A stretch of 64,000 bases of DNA from NCBI RefSeq assembly GCF_029815055.1, contig NZ_JAPPWA010000002.1:186001-250000 (forward strand). The letters are read 5' to 3'. The stretch is from Ignatzschineria sp. RMDPL8A. GTDB taxonomy: Bacteria; Pseudomonadota; Gammaproteobacteria; Cardiobacteriales; Wohlfahrtiimonadaceae. How positions within the stretch are numbered: the first letter of the stretch is position 1; each line of letters begins with the position of its first letter. Below, one piece after another: positions 47,130 to 51,636 of this stretch. The notes beneath the pieces are model-generated. The model did not search any database, was not told where the DNA came from, and saw only the letters and a program-made list of their open reading frames with translations. Position numbers and translations under genes: made by a program.

Positions 47130-47681
47130 ATGGGAATCGGAATCATCGGTTTAGGGATCGTCGCCCTCTATTCGATCGTTGTCTATAACCAATTAATTCG
47201 TCGGAAGATGCTGATTGAAGAGGCGTACGCGGGGATCGATGTGCAGTTGCAATTGCGCTATGATCTGGTGCCGATGCTCGTTGAGGTTGTGAAAGCGACG
47301 CGTCTGCATGAGTCGAGCACGTTAAAAGAGGTGATTGAACTTCGCAGTCGCGGGATGTCGGGGACGCTCTCGGTGGAGGCACTCGGGAAAAATGAGGTGG
47401 CGCTTTCCCGTGCGCTTGCACGCCTGATGGTCAATGTAGAGAATTATCCTGAATTACGCGCCAATCAAAACTTTTCAGAATTGCAAACCCAGCTAGTGGA
47501 TATTGAAGATCTGCTCGGTGAAGCACGCCGTTATTACAATGCCACGGTGCGTTATTTTAATATCTACAAACAGCAATTTCCCAATGTGTTAATTGCAAAC
47601 CTCTTTCGCTTTAGTGATGGGACCTATTTTGCCGTCAGTGAAGATAATGCGCGCAAATCACCGGGGGTATCACTCTCATGA
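47130..47681 (+). CDS. LemA-family protein
   Basis: A 183-residue protein with an N-terminal membrane helix (GIGIIGLGIVALYSIVVYNQLI) and a long helical LemA domain: RRKMLIEEAYAGIDVQLQLRYDLVPMLVEVVKA, ARLMVNVENYPELRANQNFSELQTQL and EDLLGEARRYYNATVRYFNIYKQQFPN. The N-terminus is outside and the helical bundle sits at one face of the inner membrane. The function of LemA is unknown; it is often encoded next to DUF2207 or TPM-domain proteins, as here. ATG 47130 follows AAAGGAGA. It overlaps the next gene by four bases. Confidence 0.88.
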   Translation: MGIGIIGLGIVALYSIVVYNQLIRRKMLIEEAYAGIDVQLQLRYDLVPMLVEVVKATRLHESSTLKEVIELRSRGMSGTLSVEALGKNEVALSRALARLMVNVENYPELRANQNFSELQTQLVDIEDLLGEARRYYNATVRYFNIYKQQFPNVLIANLFRFSDGTYFAVSEDNARKSPGVSLS

Positions 47682-49627
47682 TAAAACCGTTACGGCTCGG
47701 AGTGGCGTTGATTCTTTTTGCACTGATTCAGATCATCAGCCCGCTTTATGCAGAGACCATTTTAAACTACGACACAACGTTAACGCTCGATCAATCCGGG
47801 GAGCTTTATGGGCAAGAGCGCATTTTAATGACGGTGGAGCACAATCAAGTGCGCCTTGGAATCTATCGGGAATATCCGGAGCGGTTTTTTGCCCTTGGTA
47901 AATCTTATAAATCGCCGTATGAAATTATTGCTGTGACCCGGGATGGTAAGCCCGAGCCTTTTTGGACGGAGCGACGCGATGGTGTATTAAAATTGTTTAC
48001 TGGCGCTCGCGACAATCGGCCGGAGAATTATCTCCCAAAAGGGAAGGCGGAATATCAAATTACTTGGCGCTCTAAGCAACATGTTCGCCGTTTTAGTCAA
48101 TTTGATGAGCTCTATTATAATGCGACCGGCAATGAGTGGAGTTTCCCCATTGAGTCGGCAACGGTGACGGTGAACCTGCCGGAAGCGGTACAAATTAAGC
48201 AGAGCGCGAGCTATATTGGGCGCTCGGGGAGTCGTGAATCGGGAGAGCTAACGGAGATTAATCCTCAAACCATTCAAGCTGCTTCAACGCGTCCCTTAAG
48301 AGCTCGAGAAGGACTCACCATCGCGGTGGGATTCACGCCCAAAATTATTAAAAATGTGGGCTATAAAGCGAGCTTAGCGGATGAACAGCAAAATGCGATA
48401 CTCGAGCGGCTTCCGGGGTTTTTCCCAGTCTATGCGCTTCCCCATCTATTGGCGCTTATCTGCATGCTGATGATCTACGTTTGGGCATGGTTTCGTTATG
48501 GGAAACGGCACAGTCTTGGCGTTGTCAAACCTGAATTTAAGCAACCTGATTCTTTGGTGGTCGGTAAAGCGGCAGCGGCTTATTTTGGCTATGAATTTGA
48601 TGCAAAACGGGTGATTAGCGCAACCTTTGTGGAGCTTGCGGCGATGGGGCTTGTGGAGCTTGATATGGAGAGTATCAGTCTTACGAAAATGGGTGAAAAG
48701 GCGCATCACACAAAGATTTCTGATCCGGAATTAATGACGTTTTTCAGAGCGTTTTGGGCATTTGATCAAAAAACGGGGCGCTTTGCACATAAAAAACTGG
48801 CTTTAAACAAGCTCCCGGGAACCTGTGTGAGCGCGACAAGCAAGTATATTGCGGCGTTACGGCGCGACGGGGTGAAGCAGTATGAGAAAACCATTTGGCC
48901 GATCTTTCTGGGGCTTGGATTTGGGGCGTTAGCGCTCTTTATCTACCCTTCACCGCATGTTGGAAAAGTCGCGACGGTAGTGTTACTGATGGTATCGATC
49001 ATGTATGTGCCCCTTTTGAATGCGATGATCAGCAACTTTAAAGAGAAAGAGTACAGCGCGGTGATCTTTTTGGGCGTGTTTGCAGCGATTTTAACGGTGG
49101 GGTTTGTCTCTAAAATGCCCTATTCTATGGCAGGAATGGCGCCGGATATTGGCATGTATGGCTTTACCTTAACGGGGATTCCGCTTGTGATTTTGCCGGT
49201 GATTACTACCCATTTACTGCGCCGCCCGAAAGAGAGTACCGTGCCGATGTTGCGCTATTTGGAAGGGGTAAAACTCTATATCAATATCGCCGATAAAGAG
49301 CGCTATCAAGTGATGACCCCAGAGGTGTTTGAGAAACATCTTCCCTATGCGATTTTATTTGAGCTTGATGGAAAATGGTTCGCGGAATTTAGAAAAAATT
49401 ATCAATATTATCGTCCTGAATGGTTTAAGGGTCAGGAATTTAGTGCGCTCAGTATGGGCATGGCAACCGGTGCATTGAGCCGAGGCATATCGAGCCGAGC
49501 ATCCTCAGGCTCTTCTGGAAGAGGCAGCGGGCGAAGTTCTGGAGGCGGCTTTGGCAGTAGCTCCGGAAGTCGCGGTGGCGGAAGCTCGGGCGGCGGTTCC
49601 GGTGGTGGCGGCGGAGGTGGCCGTTAA
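47678..49627 (+). CDS. DUF2207 membrane protein, first copy
   Basis: A 649-residue protein. Signal peptide (about 1-25), an exported DUF2207 beta domain (about 26-235, with GELYGQERILMTVEHNQVRLGIYREYPERF and DELYYNATGNEWSFPIESATVTV), a membrane helix near 250-270, a cytoplasmic segment, three or four further helices (about 400-510), another soluble part (ERYQVMTPEVFEKHLPYAILFELDGKWFAEF), and a C-terminal Gly/Ser-rich tail ending in a run of glycines and Arg. Start overlaps LemA by four bases (ATGA). DUF2207 has no known function; a LemA partner is inferred from the coupling. Confidence 0.85.
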   Translation: MIKPLRLGVALILFALIQIISPLYAETILNYDTTLTLDQSGELYGQERILMTVEHNQVRLGIYREYPERFFALGKSYKSPYEIIAVTRDGKPEPFWTERRDGVLKLFTGARDNRPENYLPKGKAEYQITWRSKQHVRRFSQFDELYYNATGNEWSFPIESATVTVNLPEAVQIKQSASYIGRSGSRESGELTEINPQTIQAASTRPLRAREGLTIAVGFTPKIIKNVGYKASLADEQQNAILERLPGFFPVYALPHLLALICMLMIYVWAWFRYGKRHSLGVVKPEFKQPDSLVVGKAAAAYFGYEFDAKRVISATFVELAAMGLVELDMESISLTKMGEKAHHTKISDPELMTFFRAFWAFDQKTGRFAHKKLALNKLPGTCVSATSKYIAALRRDGVKQYEKTIWPIFLGLGFGALALFIYPSPHVGKVATVVLLMVSIMYVPLLNAMISNFKEKEYSAVIFLGVFAAILTVGFVSKMPYSMAGMAPDIGMYGFTLTGIPLVILPVITTHLLRRPKESTVPMLRYLEGVKLYINIADKERYQVMTPEVFEKHLPYAILFELDGKWFAEFRKNYQYYRPEWFKGQEFSALSMGMATGALSRGISSRASSGSSGRGSGRSSGGGFGSSSGSRGGGSSGGGSGGGGGGGR

Positions 49628-49668
49628 AAGGTCATTAGACAATCTATAATTCATACGATGAGGCAATC

Positions 49669-51636
49669 ATGAGAGAGCAAACAGAGGATTTTCCTTCTAC
49701 ATTACGTCCGATGTGGGGTTTTCTGCGCACCGTTCAGGTGTTTTGCATTGTGCTCTCTCTGTCACTGCTTTCGCCTCTTTTTGCCGAAGAAATTTTGGAG
49801 TATCACCTCGATGTGGAAATCTTAGCGGATGGCACCATTGAGGGGACGGAGCGCATCTTAATCATCGTCGATCATCAAGCGGTTCGTTTGGGGATCTATC
49901 GGGATTATGAGACGGCGTATTACCCAAATCATAAGCGGATTGAGACGCCGTATCAGATTATCTCGGTGACCCGCGATGGCGCGCCTGAGCACTATTGGAC
50001 GGAGGAGGTTAGTAAGGATACGATGCGCCTTTTAACCGGTGCTGAGCAGAATCTCGCCGCCAATTATCTCCCAAAAGGCGTTGCGCAATATGAGATTAAG
50101 TGGCGCAGTGAGAATCATATTCGCTCTTTTAAGGAGTACGATGAGCTCTATTACAATGTGACGGGCAATGGTTGGAAATTCCCTATAAATCAGGTGAGTG
50201 CGCGGGTGACGTTACCTGCGGGCGCTTCGATTATTCAAGCAGCGAGCTATTATGGCAAGATGGGGAGTACGCTCCGCGGGGTTGAGGTGTCGCGGAGTGA
50301 TAACACGATCGAATTTAGAGCAGCGCGGGCATTAAATAGCGGTGAGGGATTAACCATTGCCGTTGGGTTTACTCCGGATGTTGTGGAAAAGCAAGGTTTT
50401 GTCGCAGGGCCGATCGATCACTTTAATAATGGAATTTTGGAGCGCCTTCCCACGATTTTTAGCTCAACGAGTATTCCGTTTTTAGTCTCAGCAAGCGTGC
50501 TCTTTCTCTTTTATTTAGGCGTCTGGTTTTTTGTGGCGCGGGGCAAAACGTCTCATGCGATTGGGATTCAATATTATCCGCCTGCGGAGCTCTCTGTCGG
50601 TGATGTGATGGCGCTGGCTCATAGGCGTGTGATTGAGCCTATGCGGGTGATTAATGTTACGCTGATTGATCTTGCGGTGCGGGGGTATGTGATCTTCGAT
50701 ACAAAGGGGATTCGCCGGAATTTTCGTGGGCTCTCTGATTTGCCGGCAGATGAGGATGAAAAACATCTCTTGATGAAGCTCTTTGGTTGGCGGAAATCGT
50801 TGAGTGACTATGCTCATGCTAAAATTTTATTTAAAACGCCGCCACTTCAGGCCTATCTTGCCCTGACCCAGCATACTGAAGCGTTGCAAGCTCGGCGCAA
50901 AAAACACATTACTAATCACAATGGCTGGCTGACGATTGGAATTTTGATTGCGCTTGCGATTCTCTATTGTTATCCCAAATCGCCCGGCGAGAATCTAGCG
51001 ACGGCCATTATGGTCTTTATCTTGGGGTTTGTTGCGCTCTTTGTCTATATTTATACGATGGGCGAGGGCAAGGATTGGAGGCTGGGGGACCAGCTTTTCC
51101 ATTGGATCTTTGCGCTGTTCTTCTTTCCCCCTTTTTTACTGATGGTGCCTTTTTTAGTGGGGAGTTTAGAGATAACGCCGGCAGTGTTTGGCTTTGCGAT
51201 CGCGGGCCTTCTGAATGTCGCTGTTTTTATTCTGTTTGCCTATCTCTTTGAAAGACCCAAGGAGCCCTCCGTTCTCTTGGTTCAACAGGTGCAAGCACTG
51301 CGCGAAAAAATGGAGATTACCGATAAGGCACGTTATCAAATTTTGCCGCCCGAAGAATTTGAATATTTGCTTCCCTATGCCATTATTTTCGGCATTGATC
51401 AGGGCTGGGTAAGCAACTTTATGGATGCCAATCGTGGCTACCAGCCAAAGTGGTATCGAGAGCGCCAATTTAATGCACATTCTTATCGTGCCTCATTGAA
51501 TCAAACGAGTGGCTTTGCACAACCGAGCGGTTTATCAGGCTCATCATTTGGTGGAAGTTCGCGCAGTAGCTCAGGAAGTGGCGGCGGGGGCAGTTCTGGA
51601 GGAGGATCCGGCGGCGGGGGTGGCGGAGGCCGGTAA
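49669..51636 (+). CDS. DUF2207 membrane protein, second copy
   Basis: A 655-residue tandem paralogue of the preceding gene with the same order: signal segment (VFCIVLSLSLLSPLFA), exported DUF2207 domain (EGTERILIIVDHQAVRLGIYRDYETAYY; DELYYNVTGNGWKFPINQVSARVTL), helix near 265-285, cytoplasmic part, helices around 425-535, a conserved ARYQILPPEEFEYLLPYAIIFGIDQGW segment and a near-identical Gly/Ser tail. Identity is uneven: highest in the exported domain and tail, lower in the membrane middle, so the duplication is old. It ends the cassette before a strong terminator. Confidence 0.85.
   Translation: MREQTEDFPSTLRPMWGFLRTVQVFCIVLSLSLLSPLFAEEILEYHLDVEILADGTIEGTERILIIVDHQAVRLGIYRDYETAYYPNHKRIETPYQIISVTRDGAPEHYWTEEVSKDTMRLLTGAEQNLAANYLPKGVAQYEIKWRSENHIRSFKEYDELYYNVTGNGWKFPINQVSARVTLPAGASIIQAASYYGKMGSTLRGVEVSRSDNTIEFRAARALNSGEGLTIAVGFTPDVVEKQGFVAGPIDHFNNGILERLPTIFSSTSIPFLVSASVLFLFYLGVWFFVARGKTSHAIGIQYYPPAELSVGDVMALAHRRVIEPMRVINVTLIDLAVRGYVIFDTKGIRRNFRGLSDLPADEDEKHLLMKLFGWRKSLSDYAHAKILFKTPPLQAYLALTQHTEALQARRKKHITNHNGWLTIGILIALAILYCYPKSPGENLATAIMVFILGFVALFVYIYTMGEGKDWRLGDQLFHWIFALFFFPPFLLMVPFLVGSLEITPAVFGFAIAGLLNVAVFILFAYLFERPKEPSVLLVQQVQALREKMEITDKARYQILPPEEFEYLLPYAIIFGIDQGWVSNFMDANRGYQPKWYRERQFNAHSYRASLNQTSGFAQPSGLSGSSFGGSSRSSSGSGGGGSSGGGSGGGGGGGR

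Follow-up and report, generated by a model that had tools for sequence, protein, structure and literature searches.

The window analyzed here, a stretch of 64,000 nucleotides, contains a gene for a LemA-family protein that is followed on the same strand by two tandem genes for DUF2207 proteins, termed D1 and D2 in the following (Table 1). In agreement with the original prediction, the stop codon of lemA and the start codon of D1 overlap by four bases (ATGA, 47678-47681), while D1 and D2 are separated by a gap of 41 bases with a GAGG-like ribosome site before D2. The cassette is preceded by genes for an RDD-family and an Mfd-type protein (assigned by their domains) and followed by an amine oxidase gene, all of which are located on the opposite strand, so that LemA, D1 and D2 form a unit of their own. 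A scan for promoter-like and terminator-like sites yielded nothing above chance (8 vs. 6.6 and 5 vs. 6.8 expected, respectively).

Table 1. Genes and predicted protein features of the LemA-DUF2207 cassette, with positions in the window.
Feature	Position	Strand	Remarks
LemA-family gene	47130..47681	+	183 aa; Pfam LemA 9e-46; start codon ATG at 47130, stop to 47681
DUF2207-1 (D1) gene	47678..49627	+	649 aa; ATGA overlap with LemA stop
D1 exported saddle-like beta domain (predicted), residues 25-245	47750..48412	+	pLDDT mostly >90 up to residue 230
D1 cytosolic middle (predicted), residues 276-400	48503..48877	+	helix-helix-hairpin-helix in the model; unusually low D1-D2 identity
Gly strand (predicted) and Arg end of D1, residues 640-649	49595..49624	+	AlphaFold2 model; tail pattern
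DUF2207-2 (D2) gene	49669..51636	+	655 aa; tandem paralogue, sister of D1
D2 exported saddle-like beta domain (predicted), residues about 41-247	49789..50409	+	AlphaFold model; Ost1 fold match
Gly strand (predicted) and Arg end of D2, residues 647-655	51607..51633	+	AlphaFold2 model; tail pattern

The first protein belongs to the LemA family (PF04011, 155.8 bits vs. a cut-off of 26.2) and is related by sequence to the solved LemA structure 2etd (2etd_A, E 1.4e-26). It features one N-terminal transmembrane (TM) helix, followed by the residues RRK and a helical body, for which the positive-inside rule suggests an orientation with the N-terminus outside and the body in the cytosol. Residues E61, E104, Y106, Y166 and F167 are near-invariant in LemA. 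According to the accessible part of the respective report, the LemA-family protein MamQ acts in magnetosome membrane formation and requires E179, Y181 and Y241-F242 for function (PMC4902198). Judged by equal spacing only, these residues would fall on E104, Y106 and Y166-F167 of the window's LemA, which reaches 66.5 bits with the MamQ equivalog model (NF040966), well below its cut-off of 250 bits. Three further LemA genes are present in the same genome (L054, L055, L056). None of them adjoins a DUF2207 or TPM gene, and one is followed by a gene whose product matches DUF3137 at a score under the cut-off.

Both D1 and D2 contain the DUF2207 N-domain (PF09972; 82.2 and 93.5 bits, respectively, cut-off 24.4) as well as DUF2207_C (PF20990; 35.0 and 45.7 bits, cut-off 33), confirming that a full-length paralogue follows the first DUF2207 gene. 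The two proteins share one architecture, consisting of a signal-peptide-like N-terminus, an exported beta domain, one TM helix, a cytosolic middle, four TM helices, a C-terminal block (C-block) and a Gly/Ser tail, where the assignment of parts to the exported and cytosolic sides is a probable one. An exported beta domain and a split membrane part, as noted originally, are therefore found in both. Overall, D1 and D2 are about 35% identical, with values of 47.5% for the N-domain, 20-21% for the middle, 15-19% for the TM region, 36-39% for the C-block and 53-55% for the tail. These values were compared with those for 1,052 pairs of relatives (not independent of each other) that exhibit N-domain identities of 0.43-0.52. 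In this comparison, the middle is unusually diverged (19.7% vs. a reference mean of 33.6%, sd 7.1; 0.5th percentile), while the TM region (reference mean 21%) and the C-block are not unusual, residing at the 15th and 13th percentile, respectively.

Structures were predicted with AlphaFold2 in two runs with the same 70 sequences (68 of 84 reference sequences plus D1 and D2), reordered such that either D1 or D2 came first. Mean pLDDT and pTM were 81.3 and 0.62 for D1 and 81.9 and 0.63 for D2. The exported domain is very confident in both models, and a linker toward the C-terminus (D1 608-634, D2 613-644) has a pLDDT below 50. When the modeled exported domains were compared using VIA-align, the top match was Ost1 (8agb_E) in both cases, with Z 15.4 over 170 residues for D1 and Z 15.5 over 171 residues for D2, each at 2.8 Å. 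Next after Ost1/ribophorin I were N-domains of M1 aminopeptidases (Z about 12 for both copies). As modeled, the exported part of DUF2207 is thus folded like lumenal domain 2 of Ost1/ribophorin I. The M1 catalytic motifs HExxH and GxMEN are absent from D1 and D2, and hhalign of DUF2207 against the M1 N-domain (PF17900; 20 PepN-type N-domains) gave a probability of 0.7% over 23 columns. Sequence kinship with M1 N-domains was thus not found at the profile level, and the likeness appears to be one of fold only. A search of solved structures by sequence returned seven matches to DUF2207 (E 0.0029 to 0.92), which lie mostly on the Gly-rich end and were taken for chance.

With regard to the association of the two families, a collection scan yielded at least 568 related stretches, and among the best 80 of these LemA is present in 74. 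In 59 of the 80, it is located within 200 bp upstream of DUF2207, and in 11 of these close pairs the ATGA arrangement of the window recurs if the first start is taken; it lies 1.0-1.5 kb upstream in 14 more and is separated by a 300-bp gap in one. An aroA-like gene resides between LemA and DUF2207 in four (L063, L075, L096, L110) of five loci looked at, the fifth being L127. Among the six stretches without LemA, three start no more than about 200 bases from a contig end. In the rhizobial loci L063 (4187-5974), L110 (4090-5967) and L120 (3759-5837), LemA has a very diverged, tail-less DUF2207 on its upstream side and a tailed DUF2207 on its downstream side, with the aroA-like gene intervening after LemA in L063 and L110.

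In a survey of the class, DUF2207 was found in 25 of 274 genomes, and LemA adjoins 22 of the 25 DUF2207 rows by the gap rule, while L139, scored as a miss, also holds a LemA frame. Two complete copies occur only in the window's own genome; the two DUF2207 matches in another candidate (G271) proved to be one gene cut by contig ends, as the pieces are identical where they overlap. In a survey of the order, DUF2207 occurs in 8 of 32 genomes, i.e., two of this species (G000 and G057, two copies each) and six of Wohlfahrtiimonas, among which the genes are arranged in tandem in G008, while G010 has two different copies that lie at contig ends. The relatives G006 and G012 have one copy. The pairing of LemA and DUF2207 is ordinary and not new, having been described, e.g., for Proteiniphilum saccharofermentans in the accessible part of that report (PMC12631010), and it is the doubling that is unusual in copy number.

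Phylogenetic trees were based on 48 (quick), 34 (careful) and 21 (region) rows chosen from 116; the bootstrap of the 34-row tree had not settled and its support values are rough. D1 and D2 are sisters when the whole protein (96/90) or the part after the N-domain (96/95) is analyzed and, weakly, also for the N-domain alone (83/81), and an ancient family-wide split into D1 and D2 types was therefore rejected. Domain swapping between the copies was likewise dismissed, as both region trees keep D1 and D2 together, although they disagree on where this pair branches with respect to Wohlfahrtiimonas. Second copies from Wohlfahrtiimonas form a clade of their own (100/100, 34-row tree). In the same tree, the pair from locus L132 (Xanthobacteraceae) are sisters with 100/99, and the pair from L108 are sisters with a support of 98 in the 48-row quick tree, where the second copy sits on a long branch and is placed with uncertainty. 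L132 and L108 represent two alphaproteobacterial loci that were doubled separately. Judged from the sequences, the DUF2207 gene of this LemA-DUF2207 inner-membrane module is duplicated in this genus, and the loci examined probably reflect four or more separate doublings on the downstream side of LemA. For the heteromeric complex with LemA that had been suggested on the basis of the doubling, copy numbers provide a mixed answer: D1 and D2 are jointly retained within the species, whereas tandem pairs outside the genus are separate in origin, so that copy number does not support an old obligate complex of D1, D2 and LemA.

Between two genomes of the species, dN, dS and dN/dS amount to 0.0076, 0.147 and 0.05 for D1 and to 0.0094, 0.066 and 0.14 for D2, while LemA exhibits three synonymous and three other changes. 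The low dN/dS values indicate that both DUF2207 copies are kept by selection. The description of the locus as an envelope cassette made up of two uncharacterized families therefore stands, with both copies intact and under purifying selection.

In DUF2207, conservation is highest at the C-terminal end. When frames below 480 aa and frames without a stop were excluded, 98 of 106 distinct complete ends fitted the pattern [FSAG][SAG] followed by 11 Gly-like residues and a last residue that is W (87), R (10) or F (1). Glycine occupies all 11 places in 79 of the 106, and all four Gly codons are used. The eight ends that do not fit comprise L130, with Cys where S, G, A or F is wanted, the three tail-less rhizobial copies, L083, the second copy of L108, L127 and L159. 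All ten Arg-ended tails stem from the window's family: D1 and D2 possess the 11-residue Gly-like block with one Ser within it and end with Arg instead of Trp. The notion of near-identical tails applies to the proteins, with 31 identical residues, and not to the DNA, because the same codon is used at only 8 of these 31, which also rules out recent gene conversion. Across 143 gammaproteobacterial genomes, a Gly5-Trp-stop pattern occurs at 20 sites vs. 5 for the reversed control. Thirteen of the 20 end frames of at least 77 aa, 11 of them DUF2207 genes by position and the other two 165 and 77 aa long; the remaining seven frames are shorter than 30 residues, and one of these, a 13-residue piece at a contig edge, may be a DUF2207 tail. 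One site reads TGG at the position where a stop was allowed. In the window's own genome, the corresponding Gly5-Arg type pattern is confined to the C-termini of D1 and D2.

Tailed DUF2207 proteins are also encoded in G004 and G001 (L050, 6404-8299 and L051, 6372-8261), two genomes without a LemA match, so that LemA cannot be the sole reason for the tail. The C-terminus of YciQ from Escherichia coli K-12 reads GGGAGGGAGGGGGGGW (Gly7-Trp), and no LemA annotation is present within 15 kb around yciQ in this strain. Ending with SGGGAGGGAGGGGGGGW, YciQ (L290, 4747-6642) offers a handy laboratory model for the tail. Among the papers listed in searches of titles and abstracts, none describes a fixed-length Gly tail with terminal Trp for DUF2207 or LemA neighbors, while the accessible part of a report on Streptococcus mutans notes a Gly/Ser-rich stretch at DUF2207 C-termini in general terms (PMC10457818).

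In the AlphaFold2 models, the tail ends in a strand (D1 645-648, D2 647-654), with a mean pLDDT of 89 for D1 residues 641-649 and of 95 for D2 residues 651-655. Beyond the exported domain and the hairpin of the middle, other strand residues in the D2 model are found at 414-416, immediately ahead of the second TM helix, and at 528-530, directly behind the last one, so as to flank the TM bundle, as well as 596 in a conserved W-Y site. In the D1 model, they comprise 583-584 and three short pieces in 362-375, such that the W-Y site (D1 582-583, D2 595-596) is common to both. With partner strands assigned by elimination, the tail strand is predicted to dock on the cytosolic side of DUF2207, either in cis or in trans.

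Based on these findings, we tentatively propose, with a little less than an even chance of being correct, a LemA-organized inner-membrane assembly with a doubled DUF2207 protein and the Gly tail as a strand latch. LemA with its cytosolic body would serve as the membrane-side organizer, and for the non-catalytic exported saddle we infer a role in holding or sensing a client in the envelope. In the model, the cytosolic middle is followed by the four TM helices, the C-block, about 30 disordered linker residues rich in Ser and Gly, and the Gly strand, which has no side chains and could lie flat in a tight site. The tail would then act as a predicted latch that closes the cytosolic side and that may open upon binding of the client or of LemA. 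After duplication, the exported domain and the latch would have been kept and the cytosolic middle changed, so that D1 and D2 probably respond to one type of envelope signal but engage different partners in the cytosol. They would do so as alternative subunits or within a putative heteromer in which the tails may swap.

The latch is consistent with confident C-terminal strands in both models, which were run with a different first sequence and the same 70 sequences, with the fixed tail length in spite of mixed Gly codons, and with the retention of the tail in the two genomes without a LemA match, as would be expected for an intramolecular element. The unusual divergence of the middles is in line with specialized copies, and the close linkage of LemA and DUF2207 genes as well as the fit of the functional MamQ residues by spacing are consistent with a role of LemA. 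On the other hand, the models of D1 and D2 differ in the full set of partner strands, and the strand may have been memorized by AlphaFold. In the window's family, residues by the predicted dock are altered along with the shift from Trp to Arg, but many others are as well: of the near-invariant columns, 3 of 3 after the last TM helix and 1 of 2 ahead of the second one are changed in at least two of the four family rows, as are 10 of 16 within the C-block and 11 of 37 within the N-domain. A specific coupling was accordingly rejected, and the changes constitute weak evidence for a latch. The three tail-less rhizobial paralogues do not have the aligned motif before the second TM helix and are too diverged to say much.

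An alternative emerges from the genes around LemA, which were counted for 91 of 99 LemA places, the eight weakest (E 1.9e-11 to 1.1e-7) being left out. A Gly/Ser tail is encoded in 25 of 80 genes directly downstream of LemA (7 DUF2207 and 18 TPM) vs. 1 of 59 upstream neighbors and 3 of 441 other genes, a background that is local as the survey was centered on LemA loci. Of these three, two are the second copies of DUF2207 tandems and one is a fragment next to a TPM gene. Two DUF2207 and three TPM frames downstream are without a tail, and three of these five (L047, L211, L288) run off the contig end. Among 30 loci read out of 42 TPM matches, 21 have a Trp-ended Gly/Ser tail on the TPM frame; the other nine comprise three second TPM genes without a tail, two ending with Phe, one with Asp and three with none. 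The single tailed upstream case, L270 (2784-3869), encodes a protein of 361 aa without a Pfam match directly upstream of a LemA-TPM pair; it ends with GGGGASSDW and is possibly a third kind of tail-bearing LemA neighbor. Taken together, this suggests a tail code shared among some LemA neighbors. The tail could then be a docking peptide read by LemA, with DUF2207 and TPM proteins as unrelated clients of one cytosolic hub and the doubling as the provision of two clients. The concentration of tails downstream of LemA and the tailed TPM loci favor this explanation, which also accounts better than a purely internal latch for TPM proteins that bear a similar Trp-ended Gly tail beside LemA and possess no DUF2207 body. 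Yet G001, G004 and E. coli YciQ retain the tail away from any LemA match or annotation, the models dock it on DUF2207 itself, and the majority of the downstream genes (50 of 80) belong to other families than DUF2207 and TPM and are tail-less. We therefore consider it unlikely that reading by LemA is what the tail serves.

It appears even less probable that the second DUF2207 copy is functionally neutral and the tail a low-complexity linker, with no heteromer formed. While the doubling is rare, has separate origins in several lineages and has single-copy relatives in G006 and G012, an identity of about 35% between D1 and D2 is not that of a recent duplicate, purifying selection acts on both copies between the two genomes of the species, and length and last residue of the tail are fixed although its codons are mixed. 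A transporter with D1 and D2 as a two-subunit pore is highly improbable. The four TM helices grouped after the middle domain in the models and the guess of a structure-based predictor, given in the accessible part of the S. mutans report (PMC10457818), would be compatible with it, but conservation is lowest in the TM region, both between D1 and D2 and in the comparison set, unlike what a substrate path would show, and no transporter family exceeded the cut-off in the profile search with D1 and D2.

Returning to the strand latch, its most far-reaching form would state that a self-docking polyglycine strand of constant length with a Trp cap (Arg in the present case) is present in DUF2207 proteins of several phyla, that this strand, tethered by a disordered leash, slots into the membrane on its cytosolic face and gates signaling from the Ost1-like domain to LemA, and that tandem copies can swap strands to form switchable heteromers. 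In this full form, the proposal is doubtful. The cassette itself is mostly ordinary in kind and rare in copy number, and its interest lies chiefly in the tail. LemA and DUF2207 are widespread, with YciQ as the E. coli representative of the latter. As stated originally, no biochemical role was found for either; nevertheless, phenotypes exist, i.e., for MamQ and, according to the accessible part of the report, for a DUF2207 mutant of S. mutans (PMC10457818). The conserved Gly strand of the models and the modeled fold of an oligosaccharyltransferase subunit (Ost1) turn an "unknown function" into testable parts, and the repeated separate doublings downstream of LemA offer natural experiments on subunit specialization.

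Several known systems resemble the cassette in part. The pair described for P. saccharofermentans likewise encodes LemA together with a DUF2207 protein with a leader peptide; in the accessible part of the report a single DUF2207 protein is named (PMC12631010), whereas the window contains two, with Arg as the last residue. E. coli YciQ and S. mutans SMU.243 are DUF2207 proteins with a Gly/Ser C-terminal stretch, although yciQ has neither an annotated LemA gene near it nor a tandem copy. LemA-TPM operons, in which the gene after LemA likewise encodes a Trp-ended Gly/Ser tail, feature a TPM domain in place of DUF2207, and no TPM match was found in the window's own genome. MamQ shares the LemA family and, by spacing, the essential acidic and aromatic residues with the window's LemA, but is a member of the magnetosome genes, and the window's LemA scores far under the MamQ cut-off. 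Ribophorin I/Ost1 and the N-domains of M1 aminopeptidases, finally, have the fold modeled for the exported DUF2207 domain (Z about 15 and 12, respectively), while DUF2207 is without HExxH and GxMEN and differs from them in the rest of the protein.
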